From Bacteroidia bacterium (GTDB lineage: Bacteria > Bacteroidota > Bacteroidia > Chitinophagales > Saprospiraceae), in the NCBI GenBank assembly GCA_030426765.1, contig JAUHXV010000002.1, forward strand, positions 1-64,000: DNA of 64,000 nucleotides. Direction: 5' to 3'. The notes under the pieces were generated by a model, which saw only the letters and a list, made by a program, of their open reading frames with translations, made no database searches and was not told the DNA's origin. Made by a program: the position numbers and the translations under genes. Shown here in pieces: positions 38,869-47,061 of the stretch; positions within the stretch are counted from its first letter, which is position 1; every line of letters starts with the position of its first letter.

Positions 38869-38975
38869 CTGTCAATAGTGTTTGATGTTTTTGACAGGTC
38901 AAAGGTCCTGCGGATCACGTGCGCTGAAAACACCCTAATCCGTGATATTTGAAAATCATGGTTATGCGGGATTCA

Positions 38976-38995
38976 TCTCACACTATTGTGTGAGA
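38976..38995. promoter_or_regulatory. Perfect inverted repeat in the divergent DUF4395/kinase region
   Basis: TCTCACAC at 38976-38983 and GTGTGAGA at 38988-38995 form 8-bp arms around a 4-nt centre. The site lies between the divergent starts at 38868 and 39103, 107 bp from each. It looks like an operator for a dimeric regulator, though a hairpin leader is possible. Confidence 0.45.
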
Positions 38996-39102: not shown

Positions 39103-40989
39103 ATGATGACCAGAAGGCTACTTCTTTTTCTCCTCTTGACGATATGTCCGATGCTGGCCTTTGGCTCACAGTCAAAGATTGACAGCCTTTCGCAAATACT
39201 GGAAAAGACAACGGATGATTCTACCCGGTGTGAGCTGTATATCGCTATTGCTTTATTGCAATATACCGGTGAGGAAGCGGTCAGTACGGGGCACAAAGCA
39301 CTGGATCTGGCCCGCGACATGCAAAATGAAATTCTGATCGGGAGGGCATACAATTGTCTCGCGTGGTGTTACAGCTTGCAATGGACAGATGTCAAAACAG
39401 CCTATCTGGATAGTGCGCTGGCGATTTTTACTAAACTCAATGATGCTGACGGTCTTGGGATGGTATATAACACACGTGCTATCCTTCTGCTTGACTATGG
39501 CTCTATGGAAGAGGCACTAGGCTCTTTAAAAAGTGCATACGAGTATTTTGGAGAAGCGGGCAATCAGCATCGTCAGGCTACAGTACTAAATAACTGGGCA
39601 GTCGTGCTGACCGATTTAAATCGATTGGAGGAGGCCATTCAGAAATACGATACGGCACTTATGTATCGATTGTCCGAAGACCCTCCGAATGCAGTTGAGT
39701 TGGGGAGGATTTACTTTGGTATGGGACGATGCGCGGCGATGCTTGGTCGCCCAAAGGAGGCATTAAACTATTACCTGGAATCCTATCGAAACCGAAAGCG
39801 CAGTGTGAGTAAAAGTGTGGCTGAGACCTTGATAGAGATTTCTGCTATGGTGTGTGATTGGGCGTTGGCCGGCAATGACACGACAGCACTGGTTAGGCAA
39901 ATGGCGCGATCGGGAATTCCCAACTCCATGGTGCCAATCCAAATGGCTATGGAAGTTCTGGAGGCTTCCGGCCCACATCAGTTTGGCTACAGCATCCTTG
40001 ATGTGCGCAGAAAAAAAGCACTGATCGATGGCGATTTCGAACAGGCGTATGCATTACTTGCTGAGCAGAAAAAGATGGATGAAGAAATCAAGCTGAGCGA
40101 TTCGAGTCTGGAAGCATTGGCGAATCTGAAGTCGCAGTATGCACAGGAACAACTCAAGATTCAACTGCTGGAAGAGGAGTTGGAGAACCGGAAGAATGAA
40201 ACACAGGTCAAGTTTCTGTTGATCTTTCTAGGTATTATGTTGCTCGTCCTGATCATCGGTCTGCTGGTATATCAAAATCGGTTGAAAGCAAAACATCTCG
40301 AACTGACTACCTTCAAGCAAGAGCAGCAGTTTATCGCCATGCGATCCATGCTGGAGGGACAGGAGAAGGAGAGAGCTCGCATTGCCAGAGACTTGCACGA
40401 TGGCTTGGGCAACTTATTGTCCACTGTGAAAGTGACGGTGGGAAACCTTGGGCTCAAAAGCAATGGGCAGTCGGGTACAGAGCTGTTTACTTCGGCCAAC
40501 AATCTGATTGATGAAGCATGCAGAGAAGTCAGGAAAATATCTCACGAGATGATGCCTCAGGCGTTAGAAAAACTTGGTTTGGTTAGAGCACTTGAAGACC
40601 TGGTGCAAACCGCTGATCAGGCGCATGGTTTTAATGCAGCCTTTAATGTCTATGGCCGTGAAAAATCGCTGGATGACGCTACCGAGATGATGCTCTTCAG
40701 GATTACACAGGAGTTGTTAAACAACATCATTAAATATGCGGAAGCTAAGGAAGTGAATGTGCAGCTCACCTATGGAGAGGATTGGCTTAATCTGACTGTG
40801 GAGGATGACGGTGTAGGATTTGATACGGAGAGTGTTCGTGCGAAAGAGGGTATGGGCCTTCGGAGCATCGCTTTCCGCGCTGCGCATATCGGTGGTCAGT
40901 ATGAAATAGAAAGTCGGCAGGGAAAAGGTACGATGGCCAATATCAGTGTGCCTTTGAAAACGAACCTAAAAGCAGCGGATCATGATTAG
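39103..40989 (+). CDS. TPR-containing sensor histidine kinase (HisKA_3)
   Basis: The 628-residue protein has a signal peptide, a periplasmic TPR region (about residues 25-340), one membrane span ('VKFLLIFLGIMLLVLIIGLLV') and a cytoplasmic kinase of the NarX/DesK type. The phosphoacceptor His is in 'ARIARDLHDGLGNLLSTVK', the N-box in 'ELLNNIIKYAEAKEVNV' and G-boxes in 'VEDDGVGFD' and 'GMGLRSIAFRA'. The stop overlaps the response regulator start by 8 nt, so the pair is co-translated. The signal sensed by the TPR part is unknown. Confidence 0.92.
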   Translation: MMTRRLLLFLLLTICPMLAFGSQSKIDSLSQILEKTTDDSTRCELYIAIALLQYTGEEAVSTGHKALDLARDMQNEILIGRAYNCLAWCYSLQWTDVKTAYLDSALAIFTKLNDADGLGMVYNTRAILLLDYGSMEEALGSLKSAYEYFGEAGNQHRQATVLNNWAVVLTDLNRLEEAIQKYDTALMYRLSEDPPNAVELGRIYFGMGRCAAMLGRPKEALNYYLESYRNRKRSVSKSVAETLIEISAMVCDWALAGNDTTALVRQMARSGIPNSMVPIQMAMEVLEASGPHQFGYSILDVRRKKALIDGDFEQAYALLAEQKKMDEEIKLSDSSLEALANLKSQYAQEQLKIQLLEEELENRKNETQVKFLLIFLGIMLLVLIIGLLVYQNRLKAKHLELTTFKQEQQFIAMRSMLEGQEKERARIARDLHDGLGNLLSTVKVTVGNLGLKSNGQSGTELFTSANNLIDEACREVRKISHEMMPQALEKLGLVRALEDLVQTADQAHGFNAAFNVYGREKSLDDATEMMLFRITQELLNNIIKYAEAKEVNVQLTYGEDWLNLTVEDDGVGFDTESVRAKEGMGLRSIAFRAAHIGGQYEIESRQGKGTMANISVPLKTNLKAADHD

Positions 40990-41623
40990 AGTTCTACTGG
41001 CAGATGATCATCTAATACTGCTTCAGGGCATTCGGGCTATACTGGAGAGCGATCCGGGGCTGGAAGTCGTAGGCACTGCCGGAAACGGACGTGAAGTGTT
41101 GGAGATACTGAAGACGGCACCGGCCGATGTGCTTTTGCTGGATCTCCAGATGCCGGAAATGGATGGACTGGAAACGATCACGCATGTGAAAAAAGAGTAC
41201 CCGGATGTAAAAATTTTGATGCTGACCACGAATGATGAGGGTAGCATTATTACCACCTTGTTTAAAAGCGGTGCTACAGGTTACCTCCTGAAAAATTCCT
41301 CCCAGGAAGTTTTGATACAGGGAATTAAAGATGCGTATGAAGGAAAAAAAGTGTTAAGTCCGCATTTGACCGCAAAAATGATTGAGAGCCTCAGTGAAAA
41401 ACCTAAAAGTTTGCCTGGACTAAAGCCAAGAATCACTCAGCGCGAACTGGATGTACTTCGGTTAATTGCCAGAGAGTTGACGACGCAACAAATCGCAGAT
41501 GAGTTGTTTGTCAGCACGAATACGGTGGCTACCCACAAACGCAACCTGTTTGTCAAAATGGATGTGACCAATTCGGTGGGGATGATTCGCAAGGCGATGG
41601 ACTGGGGGTTGTTGGATGATTGA
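40982..41623 (+). CDS. NarL/LuxR-family response regulator
   Basis: A 213-residue regulator with an N-terminal receiver (phosphoacceptor Asp54 in 'LLLDLQMPEMDG', acidic pair in 'LLADDH', Lys in 'GYLLKNSS') and a C-terminal LuxR-type helix-turn-helix ('TQRELDVLRLIARELTTQQI' to 'VATHKRN'). It is the partner of the overlapping TPR kinase. It ends 18 bp from the end of a second regulator transcribed in the opposite direction. Confidence 0.93.
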   Translation: MIRVLLADDHLILLQGIRAILESDPGLEVVGTAGNGREVLEILKTAPADVLLLDLQMPEMDGLETITHVKKEYPDVKILMLTTNDEGSIITTLFKSGATGYLLKNSSQEVLIQGIKDAYEGKKVLSPHLTAKMIESLSEKPKSLPGLKPRITQRELDVLRLIARELTTQQIADELFVSTNTVATHKRNLFVKMDVTNSVGMIRKAMDWGLLDD

Positions 41624-41641
41624 TGAACTGGACAATTTACC

Positions 41642-42277
41642 TCACAGCAGGCCTCGTTCTGAAGCGATCCGTATGAGTTCGGCTCCGTTGTGCACCCCAA
41701 ACTTTGATCGCAGATTTTTTCGGTGAGACTCGACAGTGTTAAAGCTGATAAATAAAGTATCAGCAATCGACTGAGTCGAGTGACCTTTCGCCATCAGTTT
41801 CAGAACCTCACTTTCGCGACGTGTGAGTCGCGGGATAAACGCTTTCCGTGCTGCTGCCTGCCCCTTCAGATTTTCCATCAGCAGTTGTGTCGCTTCAGGC
41901 CCAAGATATTGGCCTCCGGCGGCAACCGCACGGATGGCTGTGAGGACCTCCTTTTTCCCTGAGTTTTTTAATAGGAATCCGGAGGCACCGTTTTTCAACA
42001 TAAGCTGAATAAAACTGGCTTGCTCGAGCATGGTGAGCGCAATCACTCTGGTATCGGGATATAGTTCACGCACCTGTTTTGTAGTTTCTATTCCGTCCAT
42101 CACCGGCATATTGATGTCCATGAGAATGACATCTACCTGATTTGTTTTTAAGAAAGTCATCACCTCTTTGCCATTCATGGCGACGCCTGCACACGAAATA
42201 TCTTTAGCATCTTCCAGCAGGTTTTCCAGCCCCTCCAAAAGCACTTTGTGATCATCGGCCAGTAGTACGTGTATCAT
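41642..42277 (-). CDS. NarL/LuxR-family response regulator (second pair)
   Basis: With the ATG at 42277 the protein starts 'MIHVLLADDHKVLLEGLENL' and has 211 residues: a receiver with Asp54 in 'ILMDINMPVMDG' and a LuxR helix-turn-helix ('TRRESEVLKLMAKGHSTQSI' to 'VESHRKN'). The start lies 1 nt after the kinase stop, so translation is coupled. The frame is open further upstream to 42388, but that would overlap the kinase and add residues before the receiver. It is a paralogue of the regulator at 40982-41623. Confidence 0.93.
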   Translation of the reverse strand: MIHVLLADDHKVLLEGLENLLEDAKDISCAGVAMNGKEVMTFLKTNQVDVILMDINMPVMDGIETTKQVRELYPDTRVIALTMLEQASFIQLMLKNGASGFLLKNSGKKEVLTAIRAVAAGGQYLGPEATQLLMENLKGQAAARKAFIPRLTRRESEVLKLMAKGHSTQSIADTLFISFNTVESHRKNLRSKFGVHNGAELIRIASERGLL

Positions 42278-42278
42278 A

Positions 42279-44240
42279 TCAGAGCGTGATCTTTTTACTT
42301 GACGATGATATGTCAGCATTGTTGAGTGGCAGATCAATGGTGACAGTAGTTCCGGAGTCTGCAGATGAAGTATAATCCAGGCTTCCATTCAGAAACTCTA
42401 CCCTCGATTCGAGGCTTTGAATGCCTAGTCCGCGCTTGCCGGAGTTGTGGGGATCAAAACCTATTCCATCATCTTCAACCACCAGGGTGAGTATGTTATG
42501 GTGCTGCGAAAGCTGGATGATGATCGATGTCGCTTTGGCATGTTTTATGGCATTTTGAACCAGCTCCTGGATGATTCGATACAGCATGATTTCGCGCTCT
42601 TCATCGAGCCGATCGATGTCACTCAGGTTTTGAAAAGATATATCCACATCGGAACTGCTCTGGAGCAAATTAACCATATCTCCGATCGCCGCGTGCAGCC
42701 CCATCTTCATAAGTGCATGGGGCATCATGTTATGCGCTATGCGGCGAACATCCTCGCACGCCCTGTCGATAAGTTGAGATGTTTGGCGGGCCTCCCCGTT
42801 GAGATGGTGTGTGTCGACTTTTTCCATTAGTTTTTCAAACTGATGCTTTGCCGTTGACAATAGTCCGCCCAGTCCATCATGAAGATCAAAGGCAATTCTT
42901 TTCCTTTCTTCTTCCTGTCCTTTTACCATCCCTCTAAGCGCGGCGAGGTGGTGTTTTTGCTTCAGGGCTTCCATTTCCTGGTGCGCCAGCATTTTTTGTG
43001 CCTTTAATCGGGTACGCAACACTCTGATCACCAGAAAGACAGAAAGGAGTAAGAGCAGTCCGGTTACCGCCACAATGTTTCGTTCCCGAGTTTTCTGTTT
43101 TATGGCAAACTCCTGCTGTGCGATGGTTTCTTCTTTTTGCGCAGTTTCATATTGTAATTGAAGTTCGTCAAGCATTTTCGAATTTTCCTGGCTGGCGATG
43201 CTATCACGAAGCGTATAATATTTTTTTAAAAAGCGCATCGCTTCTTTATCGTTACCCAGGCTGGAGTAAGCCTCTGAAATATCTTTTAAAAAAGTAGTTC
43301 TGTATCCGGCCACATTAAAGTGAGCATTGAATTCCTGCCCAAGCTGCCAGGCTTCAATGGCTTCCTGATACTGACCTTCATCGTTGTAAACTTCGCCCAG
43401 CCTATAGTATGCATTGACCAGGGATTGCGTTGGCTTTTGTGTGGAAAGCAAGGCTATGGCGTGCTGGATATCTTTGATCTGCTCTTGTGGGTCATCCTTA
43501 GAATGATAGAAAATCGCCAGATGCGAATTGTCACCCATCAGCTTATCCGGATCCAAACTGCTTAGGTACTGATCAAGATACTTGGCATAGTCCTCTGCAT
43601 GTTCATTTTCGCTGGCCAGCGAGATCATATATTCATACATTATTGTTCTGGCGACAGGCTCATCAAACCCTTCCAGTGAGGAGAGCGCCATCTCACCATA
43701 GTGCACGGCCTTATCGTAGTCCCCTTTGACAGAGTAAAGCTGAGAGATTCCATTCAGAGGGGTCCAGACTCTGTGCATATACCCATGTTGCTGGTAGAGA
43801 TCCATGGAAGATTGAAAACAGAGCAGCGCAGAGTCGGGTTTGTCCAGATTGATATATGCAAGCCCCATCCGATCTAATGCAAACCCTTCTAATTCATGTT
43901 CTGAAATTTTATTTGCCTGGATGGCAGCGGCCTGAAAATGCGTAAGGGCTTCGCTCGAATACAAACGAAGCATATAATATTTACCCAACAGATAATTGGC
44001 CTGAAACTGGTATTGGGTCAGGTTGAAGGAATCGGCATATGTTAAAAGTGCATTGAGGAGAGGCAGACACTCGTCGTTAAACAACCCTGCCGCGATGGCT
44101 GTAGCTTCAAGTTTTTTGGCTTTGGAATCAGGATTTTCGACTTCGGCAGATACAGGATGAGCTATGCCCACCAGCCAAATAAGCAGCATTGGCCATACAT
44201 GAAGAAGCGGTGAAGTATAAAAATTAGGTTTCCGCATCAC
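42279..44240 (-). CDS. TPR-containing sensor histidine kinase (second pair)
   Basis: The 653-residue kinase has a signal peptide, TPR repeats over about 40-380, a membrane span ('RNIVAVTGLLLLLSVFLVIRV') and a HisKA_3 kinase: His in 'KRIAFDLHDGLGGLLSTAK', N-box 'ELVQNAIKHAKATSIIIQL', G-boxes 'VEDDGIGFDPHNSGKRGLGI'. It is arranged like the kinase at 39103-40989 but only distantly similar in the TPR part, so the two may sense different signals. Its upstream region is shared with the adhesin-like gene and holds palindromic sites. Confidence 0.92.
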   Translation of the reverse strand: MMRKPNFYTSPLLHVWPMLLIWLVGIAHPVSAEVENPDSKAKKLEATAIAAGLFNDECLPLLNALLTYADSFNLTQYQFQANYLLGKYYMLRLYSSEALTHFQAAAIQANKISEHELEGFALDRMGLAYINLDKPDSALLCFQSSMDLYQQHGYMHRVWTPLNGISQLYSVKGDYDKAVHYGEMALSSLEGFDEPVARTIMYEYMISLASENEHAEDYAKYLDQYLSSLDPDKLMGDNSHLAIFYHSKDDPQEQIKDIQHAIALLSTQKPTQSLVNAYYRLGEVYNDEGQYQEAIEAWQLGQEFNAHFNVAGYRTTFLKDISEAYSSLGNDKEAMRFLKKYYTLRDSIASQENSKMLDELQLQYETAQKEETIAQQEFAIKQKTRERNIVAVTGLLLLLSVFLVIRVLRTRLKAQKMLAHQEMEALKQKHHLAALRGMVKGQEEERKRIAFDLHDGLGGLLSTAKHQFEKLMEKVDTHHLNGEARQTSQLIDRACEDVRRIAHNMMPHALMKMGLHAAIGDMVNLLQSSSDVDISFQNLSDIDRLDEEREIMLYRIIQELVQNAIKHAKATSIIIQLSQHHNILTLVVEDDGIGFDPHNSGKRGLGIQSLESRVEFLNGSLDYTSSADSGTTVTIDLPLNNADISSSSKKITL

Positions 44241-44343
44241 ATCATCTAAGTTACGCTATTCAATTGTTGCATACCGCGGATATTGATCTTGAGCTGAGTT
44301 TTTTTAATGCTGTGCAAGGTGCTATATACCTTTTGGCTATACA

Positions 44344-44359
44344 TCACCGGACACGGTGA
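44344..44359. promoter_or_regulatory. Small inverted repeat TCACCG-N4-CGGTGA
   Basis: Perfect 6-bp arms around a 4-nt centre, 12 bp before the 22-nt palindrome in the same intergenic region. It could be a hairpin or a separate binding site. Confidence 0.35.
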
Positions 44360-44366
44360 AATGTGG

Positions 44367-44388
44367 ATATCCCTGAATTCAGGGATAT
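44367..44388. promoter_or_regulatory. Perfect 22-nt palindrome, probable operator
   Basis: ATATCCCTGAA at 44367-44377 is followed directly by its exact complement to 44388. The core has the form CCCT-N6-AGGG (44371-44384). A second site of the same geometry lies at 44397-44410. Both are between the divergent starts of the TPR kinase (44240) and the repeat adhesin (44458), a fitting place for a regulator controlling either gene. Confidence 0.6.
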
Positions 44389-44396
44389 TGGATTTT

Positions 44397-44410
44397 CCCT
44401 TTGAACAGGG
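44397..44410. promoter_or_regulatory. Second CCCT-N6-AGGG site
   Basis: This 14-nt site repeats the half-sites and 6-nt spacing of the palindrome 26 bp upstream, with a less symmetrical centre (TTGAAC). The 26-bp offset is about two and a half helical turns, so the two sites face roughly opposite sides of the DNA. Confidence 0.45.
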
Positions 44411-44457
44411 ATGTTCAGGTCTGATTGATAAGCGATTTTTGGAAAAACCATTTATCG

Positions 44458-47061
44458 ATGAAAACGCTGCTTTTTAATAGTTCAATGCTTGTATGTTTTT
44501 TTCTAATTACAGGGAATCTTCTTTCTCAGGGAAATGTCGCTATCAACAGCACGGGTGATTCTCCGGCGGCAAGTGCTATGCTGGATGTTCAGTCTTCCAC
44601 CAAAGGGCTTTTAGTGCCGCGGATGTCTACGGCAGATCGGAATAACATTCCTGCTCCGGCGACCGGATTGATTGTATATGATCTTGACATCAACAGTTTC
44701 TTTTTTTATGCCGGTAGTGCCTGGATAGAAGTGTTAGGCGGGTTTACTACACTTCTTGCTGACAACGATCATGATACGAAAATTGATGTGGAAGCCACCA
44801 CAGATGAAGACACCATTAAGTTTACTGTAGCAGGTACTCAAATGGCTAAAATGGATGGTAGGACATTCCACCTGGAATCACCCGGAGGAAGTGTCTTTAT
44901 AGGAAAAGATGCGGGCATCAATGATGACGGTACAGACAACACCAATACCTTTATCGGGGGCTTTGCCGGTATGTCCAACACCAGCGGATCTTCAAATGTC
45001 TTTCTTGGAATGAATGCAGGTCGGTTAAATGAAATCGGAAAGTCCAATATTTTTGTGGGTGAAAATGCCGGTTATACCAATACGTCGGGCGAGCACAATG
45101 TGTTTATCGGAGAGGGAGCAGGTGCTCTGAATGAAGATGGCACACGGAATATTTTTCAAGGTAGTTTTTCGGGATATCACAACACTTCAGGCCAGGATAA
45201 TATGGCGTTTGGCAATGAAGCGCTCTTTTCAAATGAAACAGGTAATGATAATATTGCGATCGGTACAAGCTCTATGATCACAAATGTTGATGGTAGCGAG
45301 AATATAGCCATCGGCTCATGGGCTTTGTCTCAATCATCAGGTTCAGTACAAAATATCGCTGTGGGACATAATGCTCTCACCAATACTACTTCCGGCCTGA
45401 ATAACACAGCTGTAGGCCATAGCGCTATGCAGACAAATCAAACGGGTAACAGTAATGCAGCCTTCGGGTCAGCTACGCTTGCTAACAACACAACCGGAAA
45501 GGAGAATACTGCTATCGGCACAGCTGCTTTATTGATGAATACTACAGGAAATCAAAATGCAGGCCATGGGACAGGAGCTCTTTTTCAAAATACAACAGGT
45601 AATGATAACGTAGGGGTAGGCTCTTATGCTAATGTGAATAACCGAACAGGTTCGCAAAACACTATCCTCGGGTCTCTGGCAGGCTCCTGGGGTACACTTC
45701 ACAATAAGAGCGGTAATGTTTTTATTGGCTACAAAGCCGGATATGCTGAAGTGGGTGATAACAAATTGTACATTGAAAACTCAGACTCAGCGAATCCCCT
45801 GATCTATGGAGATTTTACTGACGGATCAGAAGTAGTGGGCATTAATGGTCTTCTGGGTGTTGGTACACAGGTACCGGTGCACCCTCTGCATGTCATTGGA
45901 GATGGGGCGGATTCGGTTCAAACGGTTGTGGGTATGTTACAATCCGTTTCTTCCGGAAGACCGGTGTTGTTATTTAGCGAAAACACATCGAGCAACTTCG
46001 CGAGTGGGATGAGTATTGAATACAATGGAGCGGCGGGAACCGGTAGTAGTAATGAAATGTATATCAATTATGTTGGTGGAAGCCCTATGGTTACTTTTGA
46101 AAACTCCGGAGAAGTGGGCATCGGCACGACACAACCCGCATGTCAGCTTCATGTGGTGGATGGAACAGATTCAGCACCGGAAGCCGGAGGATTTTTAATA
46201 CTCGGCGATTCCGACGGACCGAATGTTTCATTTGATAATAATGAGATTATGGCCCGAAACAATGGCACCACGGCCAATCTGTATTTACAAGCGAATGGTG
46301 GAAGTCTTGGGATCGGAAATGTTTCTTTTGACAGCAAAGTCAATATTCGGTCAGAAACAGGAGAGAATCCTCTGCGCGCTCGCATTGAGGGTACCACAAA
46401 ATTTTTAGTGCATAGCAACGGAGGTGTCGCCATTGGTGCTAACGCCACGCCGCCCACCAATGGCCTTAAAGTGGAAGGCGATATCACCATGGATGGAGAT
46501 GATATTACTTCTACCCAGACGTTACGCCTCAATAGTTCAACGCGCATTGAATTGATCGTGGGATCCAACACGATCATCATCGATCCCGTGACTGGCATTT
46601 CGATCAATGCAGACACCGATATGATTTTTACGGCAGGGAATGATATTTATTTTGATGCGGGTGGGGATATTATTTTAGACGCCAACGAGAATATTAATCA
46701 AATAGCAGGATATGACTATAATGTCGATGTCTCGCATGATATCCTGATCGAAGGGGACTATGGTATTGACATTTTAGCGGATGACAACATTGTGCTGGAT
46801 GCCAATCTCAATATTGATATGACATCCGGTTCAGAGTTTGAAATTAACGGTGGAAATTTTGACTTGAATAGTAGTGGATGGGTAGAAATAGATGGTACAT
46901 CAACCATTGATCTTGATGGTTCGCTGGTGCGTTTGAATGCTGAAGGAAATTCATCTGCCACAGCAGCATATACCGGATCCAGTGTAAACAATCCACCTTG
47001 TAGTACCGGTTGCATCGGAACCGTCAATACTGGAAGTTCGAAAGTGTTTATTGGATACTAA
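44458..47061 (+). CDS. Secreted YadA-head-like repeat adhesin
   Basis: With the ATG at 44458 the protein has 867 residues and a signal peptide (MKTLLFNSSMLVCFFLITGN). After 'ASAMLDVQSSTKGLLVPRMS', a common Saprospiria opening, about sixteen 17-residue units follow ('NIFVGENAGYTNTSGEH', 'NTAIGTAALLMNTTGNQ'), with the N-x-x-x-G-x-x-A pattern of trimeric-adhesin head repeats. A beta-rich middle with 'GEVGIGTTQPACQLHV' and a final D-I-x-[FL]-[DN] strand repeat ('DMIFTAGNDIYFDAGGDIIL') follow. The end ('GSSKVFIGY') shows neither a T9SS domain nor a peptidase S74-type chaperone, which related proteins often carry. Export route is therefore unclear. Confidence 0.8.
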   Translation: MKTLLFNSSMLVCFFLITGNLLSQGNVAINSTGDSPAASAMLDVQSSTKGLLVPRMSTADRNNIPAPATGLIVYDLDINSFFFYAGSAWIEVLGGFTTLLADNDHDTKIDVEATTDEDTIKFTVAGTQMAKMDGRTFHLESPGGSVFIGKDAGINDDGTDNTNTFIGGFAGMSNTSGSSNVFLGMNAGRLNEIGKSNIFVGENAGYTNTSGEHNVFIGEGAGALNEDGTRNIFQGSFSGYHNTSGQDNMAFGNEALFSNETGNDNIAIGTSSMITNVDGSENIAIGSWALSQSSGSVQNIAVGHNALTNTTSGLNNTAVGHSAMQTNQTGNSNAAFGSATLANNTTGKENTAIGTAALLMNTTGNQNAGHGTGALFQNTTGNDNVGVGSYANVNNRTGSQNTILGSLAGSWGTLHNKSGNVFIGYKAGYAEVGDNKLYIENSDSANPLIYGDFTDGSEVVGINGLLGVGTQVPVHPLHVIGDGADSVQTVVGMLQSVSSGRPVLLFSENTSSNFASGMSIEYNGAAGTGSSNEMYINYVGGSPMVTFENSGEVGIGTTQPACQLHVVDGTDSAPEAGGFLILGDSDGPNVSFDNNEIMARNNGTTANLYLQANGGSLGIGNVSFDSKVNIRSETGENPLRARIEGTTKFLVHSNGGVAIGANATPPTNGLKVEGDITMDGDDITSTQTLRLNSSTRIELIVGSNTIIIDPVTGISINADTDMIFTAGNDIYFDAGGDIILDANENINQIAGYDYNVDVSHDILIEGDYGIDILADDNIVLDANLNIDMTSGSEFEINGGNFDLNSSGWVEIDGTSTIDLDGSLVRLNAEGNSSATAAYTGSSVNNPPCSTGCIGTVNTGSSKVFIGY

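Follow-up and report, generated by a model that had tools for sequence, protein, structure and literature searches.

A candidate two-site palindromic operator between a TPR histidine kinase gene and an adhesin-like gene in a Saprospiraceae bacterium

The genes for a TPR histidine kinase and an adhesin-like surface protein diverge from a gap of 223 bp (44238-44460) that contains a perfect palindrome, a near-copy of it and further dyads. What kind of element is this, and which protein, if any, reads it? We analysed the locus within its window, that is, the whole 64,000-nt stretch of DNA, together with the rest of the genome and the genomes of relatives. The genes at the locus are listed here; the start codons of HK2 and of the adhesin-like gene, ATG at 44237 on the minus strand and ATG at 44461 on the plus strand, were chosen from the sequence.

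39103-40989, plus strand: HK1, a TPR histidine kinase, paralogue of HK2
40982-41623, plus strand: RR1, a NarL-type regulator, paralogue of RR2 and 43% identical to it, recognition stretch STNTVATHKRNL
41642-42277, minus strand: RR2, a NarL-type response regulator (Response_reg and GerE), recognition stretch SFNTVESHRKNL
42279-44237, minus strand: HK2, a TPR histidine kinase (TPR_12, HisKA_3, HATPase_c), divergent from the adhesin-like gene
44461-47061, plus strand: an adhesin-like repetitive surface protein with the signal peptide MKTLLFN, the proposed target

In both RR2 and RR1, the Response_reg and GerE domains scored above the Pfam cut-offs, and the relatives of RR2 with solved structures include VraR and NarL. 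Adjoining a NarL-type system is uncommon in this genome, since it has eight GerE matches above cut-off and four HisKA_3 kinases. The initial annotation had called the divergent gene product an adhesin, a label consistent with its repeat character and its homologues, although Pfam returned nothing at E 0.001 (a sub-threshold urocanase match had E 0.022).

Palindromic sites in the gap and their expectation by chance

The features of the gap are the following.

44344-44359: TCACCG-GACA-CGGTGA, a perfect 6-N4-6 dyad with half-sites unlike those of site 1
44367-44388: site 1, the perfect 22-nt palindrome ATATCCCTGAATTCAGGGATAT, core TCCCTG-AATT-CAGGGA (6-N4-6)
44394-44413: site 2, the near-copy TTTCCCTTTGAACAGGGATG, 26 bp from site 1
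44397-44410: CCCTTTGAACAGGG, the CCCT-N6-AGGG element of site 2
44402-44417: TGAACA-GGGA-TGTTCA, a perfect 6-N4-6 dyad overlapping site 2

The elements first described here were all recovered at the positions given: the palindrome is perfect over its 22 nt (the next perfect palindrome of at least 16 nt in the window has 16 nt), the second site has the same half-sites 26 bp further on, and the TCACCG/CGGTGA repeat is present. Read on the minus strand, site 2 is TCCCTG-TTCA-AAGGGA. The pattern of inverted half-sites with a fixed spacer, TCCCTG-N4-CAGGGA, is thus matched at 12 of 12 core letters in site 1 and at 11 of 12 in site 2. The window holds two copies of CCCT-N6-AGGG (44371-44384 and 44397-44410), both inside the gap, and among its 80-bp stretches the site in the gap has the highest dyad content. 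A 38-codon open frame (ATG to TAA, 44361-44477) spans the palindromes and overlaps the adhesin start in another frame, its length being about that expected by chance. Two further candidates were dropped: a direct repeat of TTGGCYATACAT at the HK2 start with CGGTGAA in the gap, equalled in score by 48 of 500 shuffles, and an invertible promoter based on the inverted pair CGGTGAAGTATA/TATACATCACCG, whose repeats are too short to weigh.

In simulated 64-kb windows, a 22-nt palindrome arose in 2% of runs under a Markov model of order 1 and in 3.3% under order 3 (150 runs each). The earlier statement that such a palindrome is very unlikely to occur by chance in 220 bp therefore holds for the gap taken alone, but is weaker for a search across 64 kb, and a 4-Mb genome would be expected to hold one or two. 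At least two copies of CCCT-N6-AGGG fell anywhere in the window in 13 of 100 whole-window shuffles; given 28 copies in the 3.98 Mb of the genome, the probability of finding another within 100 bp of the first would be about 0.001. The tandem near-copy, not the lone palindrome, is the part that is unlikely by chance.

The window carries six dyads with arms of at least 8 in 5.6 kb of intergenic DNA, versus two in about 58 kb inside genes. Since such dyads are much denser between genes than within them, a strong intergenic dyad is not rare, which counts against reading this one as an operator of RR2. By our own sorting, from the gene list and the dyad list, two of the seven divergent gaps in the window contain a dyad of this class, both upstream of TPR kinases.

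Across the organism's own assembly (3.98 Mb in 147 contigs; G+C of the window about 45%), the search for CCCT-N6-AGGG suggested by the initial annotation uncovered no regulon: the motif occurs at 28 sites, versus 31 for the reversed control, i.e. at background level. Coding context was obtained for 15 of the 28 sites (8 coding and 7 intergenic, the two gap sites included). The longer motif TATCCCTG-N4-CAGGGATA gave 26 matches with up to three mismatches, 24 of them in open frames and two intergenic, namely the gap sites. We gave no weight to its forward excess (26 versus 6 for the control), which consists of coding matches. A genome-wide regulon was accordingly rejected, all 24 of the other near matches to the long motif being coding. 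The element is no dispersed repeat either, because the DNA of the gap matches only itself in the genome. The lack of any other intergenic copy in the genome is what a regulator dedicated to this locus would be predicted to leave. TCACCG-N4-CGGTGA has 28 other matches in the genome at up to one mismatch.

RR2 as the candidate binder

We lean, with moderate confidence, towards reading the two sites as an operator of the adjacent RR2 that would control the adhesin-like gene, HK2 or both. Under this proposal, the TPR kinase HK2 would phosphorylate RR2, an RR2 dimer would occupy the perfect site 1 (core TCCCTG-N4-CAGGGA) and then the near-copy at site 2, 26 bp away, and bound RR2 would switch the adhesin-like gene and/or its own HK2-RR2 genes; we infer RR2 binding, phosphorylation, target and sign of control alike. 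The spacing speaks against the proposal, as 26 bp places the two sites on opposite faces of the helix.

The evidence that points to RR2 comes from a second locus. In 398 genomes of the family, ATCCCTG-N4-CAGGGAT was found at 15 sites in 11 genomes; by an ORF rule, five are coding and ten intergenic (our own site included), and most are coding or form hairpins after genes, with five in one genome (G027). When the 9-bp arms ATATCCCTG/CAGGGATAT were required, one other place in the 398 genomes matched (locus L172, genome G431), between the gene for a NarL-type regulator and the next gene, 57 bp past the regulator stop. Counting against the assignment to RR2, 394 further genomes sampled from the phylum lacked the palindrome with 9-bp arms, and the remaining L172-genus genomes in the set of 398 had no ATCCCTG-N4-CAGGGAT. 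The L172 regulator is 31% identical to RR2 overall, and the two are identical over the 12-residue recognition stretch SFNTVESHRKNL.

We compared 93 distinct NarL-type (GerE) regulators, taken from the surroundings of 100 kinase matches in a longer HK2 list and from loci already in hand, leaving out duplicates and any row whose recognition stretch had over three gaps. L180, which is the same locus as L172, entered this set on account of its palindrome. The 93 proteins have 81 different recognition stretches, and SFNTVESHRKNL occurs in two of them, RR2 and the L172 regulator. These also mark the only two loci in the set with CCCTG-N4-CAGGG at up to 4 kb from the regulator; RR1 counts as near our own site by being the neighbour of RR2. 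L172 was chosen for its palindrome, and the free observation is the presence there of the same stretch, found in none of the 91 other regulators. The suggested link between RR2 and L172 has one independent locus behind it, noticed after the fact. The idea of a dimeric regulator, with the neighbouring NarL-type proteins as candidates, thus gains indirect support from the arms and the stretch SFNTVESHRKNL that L172 shares, and is narrowed to one of the two neighbours: RR2 is singled out over RR1 because SFNTVESHRKNL belongs to RR2, whereas RR1 has STNTVATHKRNL and HK1 has a different dyad upstream.

The L172 locus has ATATCCCTG-N4-CAGGGATAT and the regulator stretch SFNTVESHRKNL in common with ours, and differs in its longer arms, its single site, its other downstream genes and the absence of an adjacent TPR kinase among the ORFs listed. 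Its palindrome, near-perfect over 36 nt (L172:1492-1527; L181:2209-2244) and located after the regulator and before the downstream gene, has arms of 16-17 bp and could be an RNA hairpin. The downstream gene, which we take to encode a DUF4255 protein, is followed by sheath-like genes; DUF4255 and sheath genes mark contractile injection systems. Relatives of the L172 regulator at E 1e-25 occur in 5 of 42 genomes of its genus, itself included, and a test for the same order in that genus failed, as the loci read for the other four have no such palindrome. One of these four, L183, carries ATCCATG-N4-CATGGAT (2086-2103) in a position like that of L172. The five long hairpins CCAAGGATCCCTG-N4-CAGGGATCCTTGG of G027, on contigs C306, C333, C341, C482 and C630 (L170, L176-L179), are a dispersed palindromic repeat. 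Near a NarL-type regulator at L237 (G058:C174), two 29-bp arms form an inverted repeat around a single central nucleotide.

The paralogous system next door has dyads upstream of HK1.

38890-38903: TTTGACAGGTCAAA dyad, unchanged in the same-genus genome G001 (L208)
38976-38995: TCTCACAC-TATT-GTGTGAGA dyad, conserved in the same-genus genome

The second reads CCTCACACAATTATGTGAGG in G001 (in locus orientation), its outer pair having changed on both sides together; with one mismatch allowed its core matches nowhere else in our genome, and at two mismatches there are four matches. The HK1 system thus has its own, different and conserved dyad, which fits paralogous regulators with separate sites; this dyad could instead serve the divergent gene. 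Upstream dyads are not a rule for such kinases. Of 30 loci tried, five without a kinase ORF by the search pattern were left out, and arms of at least 8 were present in 4 of the remaining 25 (L013, L017, L027 and L029); the kinase on contig C136 of our genome has no such upstream dyad. This lack of regular dyads upstream of homologous kinases also argues against the assignment to RR2.

Alternative readings of the gap

In the main rival reading, the dyads might instead be 5' hairpins of the adhesin mRNA (about 44341-44420), either protective or switching between two pairings, a reading that we consider rather unlikely. One pairing would join 44367-375 with 44380-388 beside a hairpin in 44396-417; the other would join 44364-375 with 44406-417 and 44381-384 with 44397-400. 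The predicted fold of 44341-44420 is strong on the plus strand (z -5.28; no shuffle out of 300 reached this stability) and weaker on the minus strand (z -3.60); however, perfect dyads yield a fold signal on both strands whatever their role. The long pairing has 12 bp, with two G-U pairs that form on the plus strand only, the MFE structure of 44341-44475 adopts it, and the alternatives differ little in partial energy (-18.6 to -18.9 versus -22.2 kcal/mol), but two copies of one dyad produce alternative pairings of themselves. At 44327 there is a weak TACCTTTT box, which would place the transcript start just before the first dyad; this start is a guess, as that promoter box shows no clear enrichment in the intergenic DNA of the window. 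The Bacteroidota promoter box was uninformative in the gap, and a search around the gap returned no sigma-70 sites. The region 44150-44550 contains no intrinsic terminator (GC-rich stem with a T run), Rfam gave a single chance match (E 4.1, 16.5 bits versus a gathering score of 55), and the 32 further upstream regions listed for homologous surface-protein genes bear no resemblance to this one. A leader RNA would also leave unexplained the sequence and the recognition stretch shared with L172. The hairpin at the start codon (44421-44475) is not unusual (z -0.47).

A combined form, in which the 80-nt segment is both operator and adhesin leader RNA, with RR2 setting initiation and the transcribed arms choosing between two exclusive folds, strikes us as very improbable. 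If true, it would make a two-level switch of adhesin output in a species-specific sensor-adhesin cassette.

Somewhat less likely than a leader RNA alone is an operator of a distant regulator other than RR2, or of different regulators for different dyads. The four dyads, with three unlike types of half-site in 75 bp, would suit it, and a palindrome by itself does not name its binder; against this, distant regulators usually have more targets, and the genome has no other intergenic match to the long motif. Lower again we place the view that the palindrome and its near-copy arose by chance, or are what is left of a decayed element, and have no function. The 2-3% of windows expected to hold a 22-nt palindrome and the silence of conservation (the locus itself being private) leave this view some room, but it fits poorly with the tandem second site, with a place between divergent genes, with a dyad score higher than anywhere else in the window and with DNA that has no further copy in the genome and hence belongs to no repeat family.

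Distribution of the locus and related systems

Of 100 genomes searched with the DNA of the gap, our own was the only one to contain it, the other 99 giving no match. HK2 has a homologue in 91 of 100 relatives, the best full-length one 33% identical, and a search of contigs gave 28 relatives at up to 40% identity, mostly over the kinase end. An operator conserved across relatives was therefore rejected, and the same gene order was not found among the genomes examined. The same-genus genome G001 (L208) retains HK1 (80% identical), RR1 (87%) and the upstream neighbours; after this pair come two other genes and then a fasciclin-type gene. The adhesin-like, ferritin-like and AlaDH-like genes had no match in the stretch of G001 that was read, and the matches of RR2 and HK2 there were paralogous pairs only. 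The segment 41642-48915 (RR2, HK2, and the adhesin-like, ferritin-like and AlaDH-like genes) is thus missing at the collinear place in G001 and is lineage-specific. Since G001 is without the RR2-HK2-adhesin segment, either one lineage acquired the segment with the palindrome or the other lost it.

FimS, like HK2, carries TPRs, and HK2 matched the NCBIfam FimS model at E 1.3e-16, below its cut-off (60 bits versus 600). In the part of the report available to us, FimR of Porphyromonas gingivalis is described as binding the mfa1 promoter region and regulating fimbriae (PMC1974823). FimS/FimR is likewise a Bacteroidota kinase and regulator over surface-adhesion genes, its target being a fimbrillin whereas the proposed target of HK2/RR2 is a repeat protein; a term search of the same part gave no mention of a palindromic site (PMC1974823). 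The geometry of the site has its closest parallel in ComA, a NarL/FixJ-type regulator of Bacillus subtilis that, in the available portion of its report, binds inverted hexamers separated by 4 nt, the same 6-N4-6 arrangement as TCCCTG-N4-CAGGGA; there too, another related element lies close to the main one (PMC4797271). The ComA half-site is TTGCGG, its second element is arranged as a direct repeat across a 5-nt spacer, and ComA binding is shown (PMC4797271). Here the half-site is TCCCTG, site 2 is an inverted near-copy and the RR2 site is predicted from sequence; B. subtilis also belongs to another phylum.

Taken together, the element is real and of an ordinary kind among genetic switches; it is private to its locus and, we infer, best assigned to RR2. 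Pairs of a TPR kinase and a NarL-type regulator are widespread in the group, as the 91 relatives with an HK2 homologue indicate, and in the titles and opening lines of abstracts that we searched we found no palindrome mapped as the site of such a regulator. Linking a candidate site to a single recognition stretch would be a start on reading the recognition helices of the NarL-type family. If the assignment to RR2 is true, one private sensor would be linked to one surface protein, a local route by which the control of adhesion may evolve.
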